From the IMG/VR virus record IMGVR_UViG_3300047353_000757, positions 1 to 20,978 of that record: DNA of 20,978 nt; one strand, 5' to 3'. The stretch is from a virus. The notes under the pieces are model-generated. The model saw nothing but the letters and a program-made list of their open reading frames with translations, did not search any database and was not told where the DNA came from. The position numbers and the translations under genes were made by a program. Of the stretch, positions 10,552 through 19,852 are shown in pieces; positions within the stretch are counted from its first letter, which is position 1, and every line of letters starts with the position of its first letter.

Positions 10552-11317
10552 AATTATAGGTTTCAAGATCATTTGCAAAATGTTCTTCAATAATCTTTTT
10601 GGTCCTTGGAGTATACATCTCCCTATAGTATCTGTGATTAGACCTTCTATCTTGATTAATAGTTAAATCAAACCCAACTCTATCAGAGATATACTCCATA
10701 TCACTCTTAATAGTTTCAACCTTACCAATATAGTCTGGAATGTCACCGATGACATCTGTTTGCGGTAAAAAGTGAATATCTCTAGACCAACCACTATCTA
10801 CAAACTGCTCGCAGAAGTAATCAAATCCCATGTTCTTTTTGATTGTTAGGAACTTTCCACCATCAACATCAGCAAGAATATCAAAGTATGATAGTGGTTG
10901 ACCATCTATGTTCCAATCATATGCTTGTCTATAGTGACTATAAAAGTCATCGTAAGATTCAAACTGTTTGGGATCAGTTTCCCACATACGGTAGATACAG
11001 AGAGTATCATCTTCCCACAATCCTTTACTCTGCAAAAATGTTTTATAGTTATTCTGTATTCTACCTACCAGTCTGTTCTGAGTAAAATCGGACCAAGCAG
11101 ATAGCAATCTATCAAAAGGATTTCTAACGATGGCAAACTTAAAATATTCTGATTTATTGGGAAAGAACTCAAGGTAATCTTTCGCCTTCATATGATGAAG
11201 AACGGGTGGTGGATCATCAGTCCAACCATACCGTTCTTTTAATTTGATATGAATTGATGTTCCACCTGCCTTTGGAACGTGGAAAAAAATAAACTTTTCC
11301 TTATCAGATACTAACAT
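10541..11317 (-). CDS. Carbohydrate sulfotransferase (PAPS-dependent)
   Basis: A 258-residue sulfotransferase. FFHVPKAGGTSI (11-22) is the 5'-phosphosulfate-binding loop, and FAIVRNPFDRLLSAW (61-75) is the 3'-phosphate-binding motif with Arg65 and Ser73, as in the sulfotransferase 2 family of carbohydrate sulfotransferases. These enzymes move sulfate from PAPS to a sugar hydroxyl. PAPS would come from the host. No signal peptide or transmembrane segment is seen, so it should act in the cytoplasm on the growing glycan or on a nucleotide- or lipid-linked sugar. It joins the upstream fusion gene by TGATG. A sulfated sugar in a phage-encoded glycan is unusual. Confidence 0.88.
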   Translation of the reverse strand: MLVSDKEKFIFFHVPKAGGTSIHIKLKERYGWTDDPPPVLHHMKAKDYLEFFPNKSEYFKFAIVRNPFDRLLSAWSDFTQNRLVGRIQNNYKTFLQSKGLWEDDTLCIYRMWETDPKQFESYDDFYSHYRQAYDWNIDGQPLSYFDILADVDGGKFLTIKKNMGFDYFCEQFVDSGWSRDIHFLPQTDVIGDIPDYIGKVETIKSDMEYISDRVGFDLTINQDRRSNHRYYREMYTPRTKKIIEEHFANDLETYNYEY

Positions 11318-12471
11318 CAGATAAACTTATTCAATCTAGTAAAGTGTCGTCCACCATCAAACGATGTATGCTGGATAGTATCGATAATAATCTCCATAGT
11401 TGATGGGTCAACATACTTTGAGGGAATGGCAAAATGATTAGCACAGTTGTGTCTAATCGCGTGCTCTGCAGTATAGTCATCGAAGACCAGTGCAGAGATA
11501 ATATCATTAGATTTGTTTGCCGCCAAGTTCACGCCCTGCCCAGAACGACAGAATGACATTGCAAAGTTACACTCGTTAGAGTAAATCAGAGATACTGACT
11601 GGGAAACATAATCATAGTAGTCACAAGGTTTATCTACATAGGTTCCAACGTCAATATAAGGAATACCTTTTACCTCAAGGATAGTCTTTGCTTTTTCTTT
11701 CAGTTCCCACCCAGAGTGATCACAAGCAAGTGCTACAGGTTTCTCTCCAAATCCTCTAATAACTCTCTTACAAAAGAACTCAAACGTTGCTGGCGTTCCA
11801 AGAACGTGCATCTTTTCAGTATCGTGTGCAGTAACCGTCAGACCATCTTCAATCATAAGGTTATACATTGGAGCAATATAGAACTCACCTTTTACATACA
11901 TTTCCTCATCAATGACACGTTTACCATATTTCAAAAACATATTACCTGTCTTGAAATAATAAAGACCGACGTTTGCGTGTTCAGAAATAACCTCCTTCTC
12001 TACTACTCTCGCTACCTTACCATTAATATCGGTCTCAGCATAACTGTGATCAGAACTATTTGCTAAAAACGTCAGCAAGAAACCATCAGAATCTACATCA
12101 ATAGTTTCTGGTTTGAACACTGGTTCAAAGCAGACATCAGGAGTGTAGATGATAAGTGGAATATTATTATCAATATACTTCTCTGCCAGAACACAAGTCT
12201 CAAGTGCTCCGCGTGTAACTTTATCTACAACAACAATCTGAATATCCTCTCCAAACTTTTGCTTCAGAATCTTATCAATACTAAAGTTATAGATGTGATC
12301 TAGTCTTATGATAAAGATAAGATTACACTCACTAGTATCAACAGAATCAATAGACCAGTCAATGACGTGCTTATCCTTAGCAAGGATAAGTGGTTTGGGC
12401 ATCATAAACCCAGCATCAAGGAACCTCTGTGCTCTTCCAGCAATGGGAAGAAGAAGATTATATTTTTTCAT
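11317..12471 (-). CDS. Fused sugar nucleotidyltransferase and RpiB-type sugar-phosphate isomerase
   Basis: A 384-residue bifunctional protein. Residues 1 to about 235 are a nucleotidyltransferase: NLLLPIAGRAQRF (5-17), a variant of the G-x-G-x-R signature, MPKPLI (24-29) with the conserved Lys26, IIYTPDV (107-113) with a metal-type Asp112, and ANVGLYYFK (166-174). Residues about 245-384 are an RpiB/LacAB isomerase: LACDHSGWELK (248-258), SFCRSGQGVNLAANK (306-320) with Cys308 as the proton-transfer residue, RHNCANHFAIP (340-350) with His341, and GGRHFTRLNKF (373-383). The second domain also has DVGTYV..CDYYDYV, as in RpiB. Both active sites look intact. It follows the kinase gene by ATGA. The substrate is unknown; see the pathway finding. 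Confidence 0.88.
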   Translation of the reverse strand: MKKYNLLLPIAGRAQRFLDAGFMMPKPLILAKDKHVIDWSIDSVDTSECNLIFIIRLDHIYNFSIDKILKQKFGEDIQIVVVDKVTRGALETCVLAEKYIDNNIPLIIYTPDVCFEPVFKPETIDVDSDGFLLTFLANSSDHSYAETDINGKVARVVEKEVISEHANVGLYYFKTGNMFLKYGKRVIDEEMYVKGEFYIAPMYNLMIEDGLTVTAHDTEKMHVLGTPATFEFFCKRVIRGFGEKPVALACDHSGWELKEKAKTILEVKGIPYIDVGTYVDKPCDYYDYVSQSVSLIYSNECNFAMSFCRSGQGVNLAANKSNDIISALVFDDYTAEHAIRHNCANHFAIPSKYVDPSTMEIIIDTIQHTSFDGGRHFTRLNKFI

Positions 12472-13139
12472 TTAGAACTCTTAAGAATTTCAGTTGTAGT
12501 TAAATGTGCGTATTCAATCCAGTCGTGGATATCTCCATATCCCTCTAGTAATTTATAAAGAAAACAAGAGGCAAATATATCACCAGCACCAAGAACATTA
12601 ACGTTCTTTAGCATCAGTTCCTTTGGTAGTTTGTAGAAAAACTCCTCTTCCCCATTAGATACAACGCTTCCAGATGCACTATGAAGAATCACCCACCCCT
12701 TTGTAGAGTTAGTGTATTCTGAAAGACTATCATTGATATCTTCATCAGAGATGAATAGATAGTCCACATACTGAAGCATCTCCATATTAACTGGTTTGCC
12801 AGGACAAATATCGGCAGTGACAATACTGTCCAAAGCAGGGATGAAATCGTGTCGTGTCAGTTCATTTAGATAAATCAGATGACTGATCTTAGAACTCATC
12901 ATCTTTACCTGATGCTGCACTAAACTCAAGTTGACTTTGGAATATCTTTTTGCAGCAGGTTTATCAACATAGATGAGAGCTTGTCCTACATCAATAGGAG
13001 ACAATCCAATATCAAGAGTTGGATCAATTTCTAATAATGCCTTCCAAACATTTGCCATTGATCCCAAAGTTTTCTTTTCTACATCACCATCAACAATAGT
13101 ATCGATAGTTAGATGACCATAAAGTGCAATGTCTTTCAT
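12468..13139 (-). CDS. PfkB-like sugar(-phosphate) kinase
   Basis: A 223-residue member of the ribokinase/PfkB superfamily. The C-terminal NVLGAGDIFASCFLYKLLEG (181-200) is the PfkB signature, with the anion-hole G-A-G and catalytic base Asp187. GSMANVWKALLEI (26-38) corresponds to the G-G-x-x-N-x-A substrate-domain helix, and YLFISDEDI (127-135) to the N-x-x-E/D region. It is short (a typical member has about 300 residues), mainly through loss of the lid and some middle strands. PfkB kinases act in ADP-heptose synthesis (the HldE kinase domain), which is relevant to its place between a HAD phosphatase and a nucleotidyltransferase-isomerase. It is coupled to both by TGATG and ATGA overlaps. 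Confidence 0.82.
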   Translation of the reverse strand: MKDIALYGHLTIDTIVDGDVEKKTLGSMANVWKALLEIDPTLDIGLSPIDVGQALIYVDKPAAKRYSKVNLSLVQHQVKMMSSKISHLIYLNELTRHDFIPALDSIVTADICPGKPVNMEMLQYVDYLFISDEDINDSLSEYTNSTKGWVILHSASGSVVSNGEEEFFYKLPKELMLKNVNVLGAGDIFASCFLYKLLEGYGDIHDWIEYAHLTTTEILKSSK

Positions 13140-13675
13140 CAGAACTTTTCTTTCAAATCAAGTTCGTAAATCTTATCTATTACTTTATCATAAGAAACAC
13201 AAGGAAGCAACCCATCTATTTCAAGTGTGTCGAATAGTGTCATAACTACATTTTCACCACCCTTAACTGACAGAACCTTTGCAACCTGCTTTACTATTCT
13301 TGGAGAATCCAACATACAAACAGGATATCTTACCTTCTTCATAATACCAATATCAAAAAGATCATCCCCAACATAAGCAGTATCTTTCTCTGTGCAATTA
13401 TATTGCTTCAAGATATCATCAAGATAATTTGCCTTGTCACTATGAAAACCTGATCCGCGATTAGCAATGACGTGTAAATTTCTGTTCTCAAGGATGCTAA
13501 CGTTGTACGGATCACCAGTCAAGAATACAACATTGACTCCGATTGCACGGAATCGTTTAATTGCAGTCCAATCTTTATCACAGAAAGTTTTAAGTTTTAC
13601 TGTCCCTTCACGATCATAATATTTGATACCGTCTGTCATAACGCCATCAACATCCAAAATTAATAATTTAATCAC
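13139..13675 (-). CDS. KdsC-like HAD sugar-phosphate phosphatase
   Basis: A 178-residue HAD-superfamily phosphatase of the KdsC type without a cap domain. Motif I is LLILDVDGVMTDG (4-16) with nucleophile Asp8 and acid Asp10, motif II is FLTGD (51-55) with Thr53, Lys81 (SDKANYL) is motif III, and VGDDLFD (102-108) is motif IV. Related enzymes include Kdo-8-phosphate phosphatase. The start is a GTG at 13675: the only nearby ATG would fall inside motif I, and AGGGGA lies eight bases upstream of the GTG. The GTG overlaps the preceding TAG by one base. It probably removes the non-anomeric phosphate from a sugar bisphosphate made by the adjacent kinase. Confidence 0.88.
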   Translation of the reverse strand: MIKLLILDVDGVMTDGIKYYDREGTVKLKTFCDKDWTAIKRFRAIGVNVVFLTGDPYNVSILENRNLHVIANRGSGFHSDKANYLDDILKQYNCTEKDTAYVGDDLFDIGIMKKVRYPVCMLDSPRIVKQVAKVLSVKGGENVVMTLFDTLEIDGLLPCVSYDKVIDKIYELDLKEKF

Positions 13676-14397
13676 TATAGAGTTCCCCTATCCTCAAGTT
13701 GAATATTATAGTCTAAAGCAAGTTGATTGATCTCTTTCTGATATTCTGAGGTGTTCCACTTACCTTTAATCAGAGCAGTAGCGATATATGGATATGCTTT
13801 ACTATCAAAGTGACCACCGCGATGAAGAGAACTTTCATGGAAGTAGAAAGCAGATTGATAACCCAACTGATGCATCGCTCTGCTAGCACCGCCAGCGTAT
13901 TCAAAGTTCCTCAACTGAACTGGATTGAGAAGATTAATGATTTTAATAAGGTCATCTTTCTTCCAAATAGATACCTGATGAACTGCCGAATAATAATCAC
14001 AACTCTTGTAAATATTAGTCGCTAACTTTTCTTCAAGAGTATCAGCACCAGATCGAAGTAGTTTAACACAAGAGAACTCATCATTTTTCTTTAAAAAATT
14101 CAGTGCCTTATTAAACTCTCTAGTTGAAACTTTATCATACAGCATAAAGTCTTCTTGAGCATAGATGACATATTCTTCATCTATTGCATCAAGGCAACCA
14201 AGAATTCTTTCAGCATATGAGTTTTTCTCATCATTTACAAGTTGAAGATGTTGATCGCCAATAACTTCCGAAAGGGAGTTAATAGCAACATAACTTTTTT
14301 CTACTTGCGGAAAGTATTTTTCAATACCCCCAAAATATACTGGAAACACATCCTCATATTCAGTGTTTGTCCAGGTGAATAATGCTACATTTTTCAT
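13675..14397 (-). CDS. GT-A-like hypothetical glycosyltransferase
   Basis: A 240-residue protein with features of a GT-A transferase but no family I can name. It starts MKNVALFTWTNTEYEDVFPVY, has a region predicting a Rossmann-like strand, then EEYVIYAQEDFMLYD (74-88), where the acidic Q-E-D-F may be the metal site, as in several O-antigen cluster proteins. Later segments SAVHQVSIWKKDDL, FEYAGGASRAMHQLGY and FYFHESSLHRGGH have the aromatic and His content of such enzymes. It joins its upstream neighbour by ATGA and downstream by TAGTG. Function inferred mainly from context. Confidence 0.6.
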   Translation of the reverse strand: MKNVALFTWTNTEYEDVFPVYFGGIEKYFPQVEKSYVAINSLSEVIGDQHLQLVNDEKNSYAERILGCLDAIDEEYVIYAQEDFMLYDKVSTREFNKALNFLKKNDEFSCVKLLRSGADTLEEKLATNIYKSCDYYSAVHQVSIWKKDDLIKIINLLNPVQLRNFEYAGGASRAMHQLGYQSAFYFHESSLHRGGHFDSKAYPYIATALIKGKWNTSEYQKEINQLALDYNIQLEDRGTL

Positions 14398-14828
14398 TTT
14401 AAGTTGCCTACATAATCGCTACAAATACCATAGCAGTCCGCTTCTCTATTTACACCTTCTAGATCAACCAGAACTGAATTTTTACTTACGTTTTTACCAG
14501 GATAAGTCCAGATATATCCTTGACTGGTAAGAGTATAGGCATCTTCTTCATGCCAAAAGTAATTGAATCCAATAAACTTTCTTTCAGTACAGTATGTGAG
14601 AGTAGCAAAGTCTTTACAGTGAATCCAAAGTTTACTTTTAAATGCATTCAACCAACTACTATCAATGAGGTATTGAGATTTATCATGCCCTAGTTGTAAA
14701 CCCAGACCAATTCTCAAATCGATTTCAACATCATATCCCTGCTTGATAGCACTCTCAATATACTTGGGAGAGTTTTCATTCTCAGGATCTGGACCATTGA
14801 TGTTTCCTCTATGAGCAATTAATCTCAT
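14394..14828 (-). CDS. Minimal GDPD-like phosphodiesterase
   Basis: A 144-residue protein with the active-site pattern of glycerophosphodiester phosphodiesterases: LIAHRGN (3-9) with His6 and Arg7, PENSPKYI-like ENENSPKYIESAIKQGYDVEIDLR (within 16-39) with Glu35 and Asp37 in E-x-D, and LGHDKS (46-51) with His48. Full-length GDPD enzymes have about 240 residues or more; this one has barely more than the first half of the TIM barrel plus an aromatic-rich end (FNYFWHEEDAYTLTSQGYIW). It may remove or process a glycerophosphate or another phosphodiester on the glycan, or act on lipid. It joins both neighbours by ATGA overlaps. Confidence 0.75.
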   Translation of the reverse strand: MRLIAHRGNINGPDPENENSPKYIESAIKQGYDVEIDLRIGLGLQLGHDKSQYLIDSSWLNAFKSKLWIHCKDFATLTYCTERKFIGFNYFWHEEDAYTLTSQGYIWTYPGKNVSKNSVLVDLEGVNREADCYGICSDYVGNLK

Positions 14829-18545: not shown

Positions 18546-18720
18546 TTGCGGATTCCCTCCTTTCGCAGGTGGTCTTTTCAAATAAGACTGGATGTGCTGT
18601 TCCGTTTCCGTCATATTTGTCACTTTCATAATAGATATTTTCACCTTTTCTGTACCCGAAATAGATGGTGGCACATAGAAAGGGTAGTGATCCGAAAAGT
18701 AAGACATCAGATAAAGTCAT
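18526..18720 (-). CDS. Small single-pass membrane protein
   Basis: A 64-residue protein with an N-terminal hydrophobic helix (LSDVLLFGSLPFLCATIYFG, residues 3-22) followed by a basic R-K and a polar tail (ENIYYESDKYDGNG, later TTCERRESANGSRKN). This fits an N-out, C-in one-helix membrane protein. The ATG at 18720 overlaps the stop of the gnd-like gene by ATGA, which is the reason to prefer it over the longer frame on the same strand at 18336-18707. The function is unknown; its position within a pentose-phosphate gene group may be only operon sharing. Confidence 0.6.
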   Translation of the reverse strand: MTLSDVLLFGSLPFLCATIYFGYRKGENIYYESDKYDGNGTAHPVLFEKTTCERRESANGSRKN

Positions 18721-19202
18721 TCAATATTGCTTGCGGATAGACATTGAAAAATTTTAGAGCAAGCATCAACAGCATAGGGTGCTCCATATACTCCAGAGAA
18801 AATATATGAGATACCTAACTTAGAGCAGTACTTCTCTAGTTCCTGACATTTTTTTATGTCACTGTTGCTATAGTCAATAATAATATCACCCTCCTCAAGT
18901 AAAGGTAGTAACTCATCAAGTGTGTCCTCTACGCTTACTTCTGGGAGTGCAATTTGAAAGATGCCTGGTTGTTTTGTATAGATTGCTTCTCCAGATTTTT
19001 CACCATAGATAGTCTCTACTGTTTTTACTTGATTGACAAGACCTTTAAGATTGGTAGTAACGCCAGTAACATATCCATTTTCATATGTCTCTTGTGCTCT
19101 GTCATAATTTTTTTGATACCCCCAGACTGTTATGCCTGCTTTCAGCATACGGCGAGACATACCCTCACCCATACGACCGAGACCAATCATTCCTACTCTC
19201 AT
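18717..19202 (-). CDS. Truncated 6-phosphogluconate dehydrogenase-like protein (NADP-binding domain only)
   Basis: A 161-residue protein related to the N-terminal domain of decarboxylating 6-phosphogluconate dehydrogenase. MRVGMIGLGRMGEGMSRRML (1-20) is the dinucleotide-binding motif, and LLEEGDIIIDYSNSD (101-115) is the family's G-D-I-I-I-D-x-x-N-S. It ends where the catalytic part should begin: the usual G-x-S-G-G region is replaced by FSGVYGAPYAVD (135-146), the catalytic Lys is not found and the helical dimerisation domain is missing. The start at 19202 is supported by AAAGGAGG and an ATGA overlap with talC; the frame extends to 19229 without benefit. It is either a remodelled redox or binding protein or a decaying gnd. 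Confidence 0.75.
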   Translation of the reverse strand: MRVGMIGLGRMGEGMSRRMLKAGITVWGYQKNYDRAQETYENGYVTGVTTNLKGLVNQVKTVETIYGEKSGEAIYTKQPGIFQIALPEVSVEDTLDELLPLLEEGDIIIDYSNSDIKKCQELEKYCSKLGISYIFSGVYGAPYAVDACSKIFQCLSASNIE

Positions 19203-19852
19203 ACTTCTCCTCCTTTTACTTGAGACCAATCGTTTTCAAAAATATCCATACCCTTGTCGGTAAGAATATGATCATACATCTGTTCAAATACTTTTGGCGG
19301 CATTGTTACGATTTGCGCACCGTTGTACCAGGATCTAACAGCACGTTGCACATTACGAATAGATGCAGACAGTACTTGAGTTCTGATACCATGAATCTGA
19401 TATAGTCCTGTGATAGAACGCACAACTTCTAAACCAGCGATAGACTGATCATCAAGGCGTCCCACAAATGGAGACACATAAGTAGCACCTGCCTTAGCAG
19501 CAAGAATTGCCTGAGCAGCACAGAATATAAGTGTGACATTTGTTCTAATGCCATCAGAAGCAAGATAGCGACACGTTGCCAAACCATCTTTAGTACATGG
19601 AACTTTAATTGTAGCAACATCGCCAAACTTTTTATGAAGACGACGACCCTCTTGGAGCATTTCAGTCCAGTTACCCATCACCTCCATACTGATGTCTCGA
19701 ACACCAATATCTTTGATCTCTTGATAGACCTCTTCAGGATCTTTACCAGATTTCATAATGAGGGTAGGATTGGTTGTAATACCGTCAATTAGTCCCGTAG
19801 TAAATGCTTCTGCAATAGTAGGAACTTCTGCTGTGTCTAAAAATATTTTCAT
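19199..19852 (-). CDS. talC: TalC-type transaldolase
   Basis: A 217-residue short transaldolase of the TalC/fructose-6-phosphate aldolase class. KIFLDTAEVPTIAEA (2-16) has the conserved Asp6, GITTNPTLI (24-32) is the family's T-T-N-P-T, and VATIKVPCT (79-87) holds the Schiff-base Lys83. SPFVGRLDD (at about residue 127 onward) is another hallmark. Transaldolase interconverts sedoheptulose-7-phosphate plus glyceraldehyde-3-phosphate with erythrose-4-phosphate plus fructose-6-phosphate. Cyanophage TalC is thought to redirect host Calvin-cycle carbon to the pentose phosphate pathway for NADPH and nucleotides. It may also affect the sugar-phosphate pool for the activated-sugar module (inference). 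Confidence 0.95.
   Translation of the reverse strand: MKIFLDTAEVPTIAEAFTTGLIDGITTNPTLIMKSGKDPEEVYQEIKDIGVRDISMEVMGNWTEMLQEGRRLHKKFGDVATIKVPCTKDGLATCRYLASDGIRTNVTLIFCAAQAILAAKAGATYVSPFVGRLDDQSIAGLEVVRSITGLYQIHGIRTQVLSASIRNVQRAVRSWYNGAQIVTMPPKVFEQMYDHILTDKGMDIFENDWSQVKGGEV

Follow-up and report, generated by a model that had tools for sequence, protein, structure and literature searches.

A nucleotidyltransferase–RpiB-type isomerase fusion in phages and its putative nucleotide-sugar cassette

Synthesis of ADP-heptose uses four activities: an isomerase, a sugar kinase, a phosphatase and a nucleotidyltransferase (PMC10948575). In the ADP/GDP-heptose pathway (GmhA; HldE, or HddA plus HddC; GmhB) the four are encoded together, with one bifunctional protein. 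The phage cassette described here has both properties, but its isomerase is of the RpiB type rather than the SIS-fold GmhA, its HAD phosphatase is KdsC-like rather than GmhB-like, and its RmlA-like nucleotidyltransferase (NTase) is fused to the isomerase, whereas HldE fuses kinase and NTase.

With RmlA-like NTases (PF00483; 4evw, HddC, RmlA, GlmU) the fusion shares the fold, G12, the PK pair, D112 and E158-K159; it differs in its C-terminal isomerase and in a divergent G-x-G-x-R signature. With the RpiB/LacAB/AlsB isomerases (PF02502, TIGR00689) it shares the fold, D251-H252, the catalytic C308, H341-N342 and R375-H376-R379. Here the differences are the placement of the domain as the C-terminal half of a fused protein, Arg, Cys or Tyr for a loop Gly, Cys for the Asp/Asn after His-Asn, Asn315, K281, and the usual loss of the Pro of D-Y-P. 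In trypanosomatid RpiB the cysteine is the catalytic base, the intermediate, an enediolate, is stabilised by main-chain amides beginning at the loop glycine, and the mutants C69S and H102N are inactive (PMC4783025). Two subunits contribute to each pocket of LacAB (PMC3755991).

A second fusion solution also occurs. In HAD-NTase fusions (cyanophages S-8S56 and B23; Alphaproteobacteria) a homologous NTase, 34–40% identical, is likewise joined to a second enzyme, but there the other enzyme is a beta-phosphoglucomutase-like HAD at the N terminus instead of RpiB; our examples (L018:4347-5732, L017:4347-5720, L101:5350-6735) are from phages and one alphaproteobacterium. Synechococcus phage S-SM2 encodes a 522-aa protein (L020:5995-7560) with tandem NTase domains at residues 2–242 and 268–498. 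A literature search on the NTase-RpiB fusion, and on RpiB in nucleotide-sugar pathways, found nothing relevant, the sole mention of rare sugars being of an engineered RpiB.

The stretch of DNA analysed, hereafter the window, is the IMG/VR virus record IMGVR_UViG_3300047353_000757 (20,978 nucleotides). An earlier note on its letters had proposed that one frame holds both an NTase and an RpiB domain with no stop between them, and this is borne out: the minus-strand frame running from 12471 to 11317 encodes 384 aa plus a stop, without internal stops (Table 1), and the plus strand of 11317–12471 is riddled with stops. The sequence motifs on which the proposal was based (AGRAQRF, PKPLI and YTPDV; ACDHSGWELK, C308 in CRSGQG, H341-N342 and GGRHFTRLNKF) are all present. 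Pfam models score above their cut-offs in both halves of the protein, NTP_transferase at residues 12–182 (24 bits; cut-off 21.2) and LacAB_rpiB at residues 246–382 (109 bits; cut-off 24.7). Structure prediction recovered both folds. The AlphaFold2 model, built from an alignment of 32 homologues, has a mean pLDDT of 94.1, a pTM of 0.88 and a short, confidently predicted interdomain linker. Its residues 5–236 match 4evw, a nucleoside-diphosphate-sugar pyrophosphorylase (Z 27.3, 227 residues, rmsd 1.9), and its residues 242–384 match Thermotoga maritima RpiB, 1o1x (Z 23.5, 142 residues, rmsd 1.2). Because the predicted fold matches 4evw, the NTase assignment holds despite the weak Pfam score. The C-terminal domain scores above the cut-off of the RpiB/LacA/LacB subfamily model TIGR00689 (106.8; cut-off 88.3) and misses that of the rpiB equivalog TIGR01120 (86.8 versus 138.65 bits). 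Judged by profile, predicted fold and catalytic residues, it is a divergent LacAB_rpiB relative, not an ordinary RpiB.

Table 1. Features of the fusion gene and its two upstream partners, in window coordinates
Feature	Coordinates	Strand	Basis or remark
Fusion gene: sugar nucleotidyltransferase (N-terminal) and RpiB/LacAB isomerase (C-terminal)	11317..12471	-	384 aa, one open frame; PF00483 + PF02502
NTase domain, RmlA-like fold, residues 1-236	11764..12471	-	structure match 4evw; invariant residues
RpiB/LacAB-type isomerase domain, residues 244-384	11320..11742	-	structure match 1o1x; invariant residues
Active-site loop C308-R-S-G-Q-G313; Arg in place of Gly of C-G-T/S-G	11533..11550	-	
Short PfkB (ribokinase-fold) sugar kinase, 223 aa; proposed C1 kinase	12468..13139	-	Pfam PfkB, AF2 fold
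KdsC-like HAD phosphatase, 178 aa; proposed remover of distal phosphate	13139..13675	-	NCBIfam KdsC models, HAD motifs

A census of this architecture found the full-length fusion, always in one frame, in at least 94 loci, with 71 distinct sequences and identity down to 46%. This set comprises the best 80 of the 179 IMG/VR loci with a relative, to which earlier matches and phage records were added. In all 71 fused NTases P9, G12, P25, K26, D112, E158, K159 and G169 are invariant. R16 of the G-x-G-x-R signature is present in 65 of 71, and the second Gly of the signature is Ala in 42 of 71, the window included. In one group (L003-L010, six distinct fusions) Arg16 is replaced by N and Pro27 by S; for the single pair compared within this group, NTase dN/dS was four times the RpiB-domain value, both being below 0.1. 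Among pairs with unsaturated dS, dN/dS was 0.015–0.09 for the NTase domain and 0.011–0.08 for the RpiB domain, values of strong purifying selection on each.

Where the fusion occurs, the HAD and PfkB genes upstream of it are almost always there too. Each of these is present in 49 of 52 non-redundant fusion loci, at a median of -1204 (HAD) and -670 (PfkB) bases from the fusion; L053 lacks PfkB in the usual place. Conversely, all 68 viral PfkB loci whose downstream sequence extends for 1.2 kb or more have the fusion as the immediate next gene, HAD is present in all 79 PfkB loci with room upstream, and among annotated phage records this PfkB occurs only in two fusion-bearing phages (one of them, Bellamy, under two accessions). 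The kinase of the window passes the PfkB model PF00294 (28.4 bits; cut-off 25.8), and its AF2 model (pLDDT 95.7) is a compact ribokinase fold with Z 21.9 to ribokinase; the G-x-G-D base motif is kept in 50 of 50 sequences. The HAD protein falls below the cut-offs of the KdsC models (TIGR01670, 84.8 versus 106.95; NF007019, 87 versus 208), and the motifs DxDG and GDDxxD are kept in 49 of 49.

The three genes of the cassette encode all four ADP-heptose-type activities, so the simplest reading is a route from a ketose-phosphate to an NDP-sugar. We consider it probable that the bifunctional fusion supplies the first and last catalysts of such a four-step route, with the two steps between them left to the kinase and phosphatase encoded immediately upstream. 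The RpiB domain would convert ketose-phosphate to aldose-phosphate, PfkB would phosphorylate C1 to give a 1,n-bisphosphate, HAD would remove the terminal phosphate to leave the sugar-1-phosphate, and the NTase domain would join this to an NTP, yielding NDP-sugar and PPi. Glycosyltransferases of the phage, or its glycan cluster, would then use the NDP-sugar. We infer, rather than observe, the order of these reactions, the identities of sugar and nucleotide, and any channelling or feedback; specificity for C1 is likewise putative, because the PfkB fold leaves the phosphorylation site unfixed. The sugar would most likely be a 5–7-carbon aldose other than the product of the phages' separate heptose genes. 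That one chain might hold the first and last steps of a pathway had been suggested in the earlier note, which missed the kinase-phosphatase linkage; the suggestion gains strength from the adjoining genes for the two intermediate activities.

In the window the cassette is surrounded by GDP-fucose genes, a UDP-galactopyranose mutase gene, glycosyltransferase genes and a sulfotransferase gene, and the window also holds a transaldolase gene and a partial gnd. The latter (18717-19229, minus strand) encodes the N-terminal half only, its 170 aa corresponding to residues 5–160 of a 345-aa phage Gnd; the remainder was not found within the window. The minus-strand gene at 14394-14828 (144 aa) looks by eye like a truncated glycerophosphodiester phosphodiesterase, has no Pfam hit, and has relatives in 44 of 52 fusion loci; we rejected it as a pathway member, since it also adjoins phage NTases without RpiB. 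In 17 loci (e.g. L100:3740-4057), a bacterial copy included, the gene that immediately follows the fusion encodes a small cupin (∼106 aa), which may be an original member of the operon. A 719-aa protein with cytidylyltransferase-like and Zeta-toxin/AAA-type kinase domains (L028:7646-9802) is encoded near the cassette in five loci. Five loci have a split transketolase-like pair (∼215 and 159 aa, without a C-terminal domain) adjoining the fusion, downstream of it in L049, L051, L054 and L056 and between PfkB and the fusion in L078; a ketose-phosphate as input fits with this split transketolase.

These surroundings bear on what the isomerase domain does. The transaldolase and part of gnd in the window, and gnd and zwf near the cassette of cyanophage SynMITS9220M01, are what might be expected if the domain simply worked as a ribose-5-phosphate isomerase to strengthen the pentose phosphate pathway in infected cells, in the manner of the auxiliary metabolic genes talC, gnd and zwf, with an incidental link to an NTase. 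Ribose-5-phosphate is still a possible substrate of the fused family, but we regard this explanation as unlikely, given that the fusion is constant in at least 94 loci and linked to PfkB and HAD among glycan genes, and that the domain falls below the rpiB equivalog cut-off and has constant residues that are not those of RpiB.

Alternatively, the cassette might make a heptose: an RpiB-type enzyme would stand in for GmhA, and sedoheptulose-7-phosphate would be turned into NDP-D-glycero-D-manno-heptose. The four activities are the same as in ADP/GDP-heptose synthesis, the split transketolase stands beside some copies, and NTase relatives in Leptotrichia and Brachyspira match the HddC model weakly. 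Against this, SynMITS9220M01 has genes annotated as heptose-7-phosphate kinase, phosphoheptose isomerase and ADP-heptose epimerase apart from its cassette, and Bellamy has a second kinase-NTase-epimerase set, so that the cassette would be redundant. Moreover, the characterised RpiB/LacAB substrates that we know of have four to six carbons. We judge a heptose product quite unlikely.

Across the family the RpiB domain is both well conserved and distinctive. In all 67 fused RpiB domains D251, H252, C308, G311, H341 and N342 are invariant, and R375, H376 and R379 are kept in all 66 with letters there. The active-site loop C-R-S-G-Q-G, pointed out earlier as differing from the common C-G-T-G-Q-G, proves to be a constant hallmark of the subfamily: the loop glycine of C-G-T/S-G occurs in none of the 67 (58 have R, 5 C and 4 Y, giving C-R/C/Y-T/S-G), versus 63 of 65 rows classed as free RpiB, where one of the two exceptions is a truncated fusion (63 of 64 without it). 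S253, N315 and F347 are constant in all 67, C343 is present in 66 (free RpiBs have Asp/Asn at that site) and K/R281 in 66 (mostly Glu/Asp in free RpiBs), and only four retain the Pro of D-Y-P. The active-site tyrosine (Y285) is Q in 9 of 67, all of one freshwater clade. By analogy with the shared LacAB pocket, we expect the RpiB domains to hold the fusion together as a dimer.

Isomerase activity of the fused domain is not assured, because the stabilising loop glycine is replaced and one clade has Q for the tyrosine; both changes would suit a domain that is no longer an isomerase and regulates the NTase through dimerisation or by sensing a sugar-phosphate. All other catalytic and phosphate-binding residues are nevertheless invariant (66–67 sequences), dN/dS is as low for RpiB as for the NTase, and none of the genes that constantly adjoin the fusion in the 52 loci encodes another isomerase, so we hold loss of activity to be improbable.

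In a tree of 128 rows all 66 fused RpiBs fall on one side of a branch (support 100/99), apart from all sampled free RpiBs. Since they form a single clade, one fusion event suffices. With midpoint rooting, and on a short alignment that leaves many inner forks open, a copy from Holophagaceae branches first among them. We tentatively suggest, as a possibility short of an even chance, that this subfamily, its pocket remodelled (R309, N315, C343, K281), acts as isomerase on a sugar phosphate foreign to known RpiB/LacAB enzymes; the fused NTase would then end a new, largely phage-kept pathway to an NDP-sugar not yet known from phages or cyanobacteria.

Rather than a one-off, the fusion gene belongs to a family spread among aquatic phages, marine cyanophages included. 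Two isolates carry it under the annotation ‘phosphatase’, cyanophages SynMITS9220M01 (49% identity by tblastn) and Bellamy (46%). Among 18 larger fusion contigs, a T4-type capsid protein gene is complete in two and a piece of it lies at the end of a third, and one contig has two photosystem reaction-centre genes; T4-like phages and cyanophages are thus among the carriers. A Staphylococcus phage match that seemed to span both domains was rejected, because the locus has two distinct RpiB-family genes in tandem, the arrangement to be expected of LacA and LacB, and no fusion. That the fusion is an assembly error or a frameshift artefact, as its lack of precedent and the metagenomic origin of the window might suggest and as the earlier note had allowed, can be dismissed, the identical frame recurring in at least 94 loci from many samples and in the two phage isolates.

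Outside phages the fusion is very rare, with one convincing bacterial genome, that of Holophagaceae. A peptide-pattern scan of 84,980 species, in which two patterns covered cyanobacterial genomes, recovered the complete fusion from just three MAG contigs, none longer than 18.6 kb. Samples of 396 Acidobacteriota, 198 Bacteroidota, 398 Pseudomonadota (overlapping an earlier 299-genome draw from the same phylum) and 299 Bacillota genomes yielded no further fusions; free RpiB genes were common in these samples. The Holophagaceae contig looks truly bacterial, with 68% G+C, TPR, PDZ and PEGA proteins, and envelope-type genes near the cassette; its fusion neighbours are HAD, a cupin and a PfkB longer than the viral form. 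The Flavobacteriaceae contig is of low G+C and has only glycan genes. The contig of a MAG labelled Crocinitomicaceae (L099, PACT01000001.1) has 15,998 bases, the same size as a cassette-bearing IMG/VR virus record, and is probably viral, i.e. phage contamination of the MAG.

The fusion is genuine and widespread; on sequence grounds it is a bifunctional enzyme of a familiar type that apparently has not been described before. The domain architecture and the RpiB subfamily appear to be new, and the gene partnership is strongly supported by the loci compared. The cassette would be a compact, conserved enzyme set that lets phages make their own activated sugar, until now masked by the labels ‘hypothetical protein’ and, wrongly, ‘phosphatase’. 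The fused RpiB subfamily would be a natural active-site variant of a well-studied isomerase. With only three small proteins, testable in one pot, the question of which sugar decorates virions or hosts becomes concrete.
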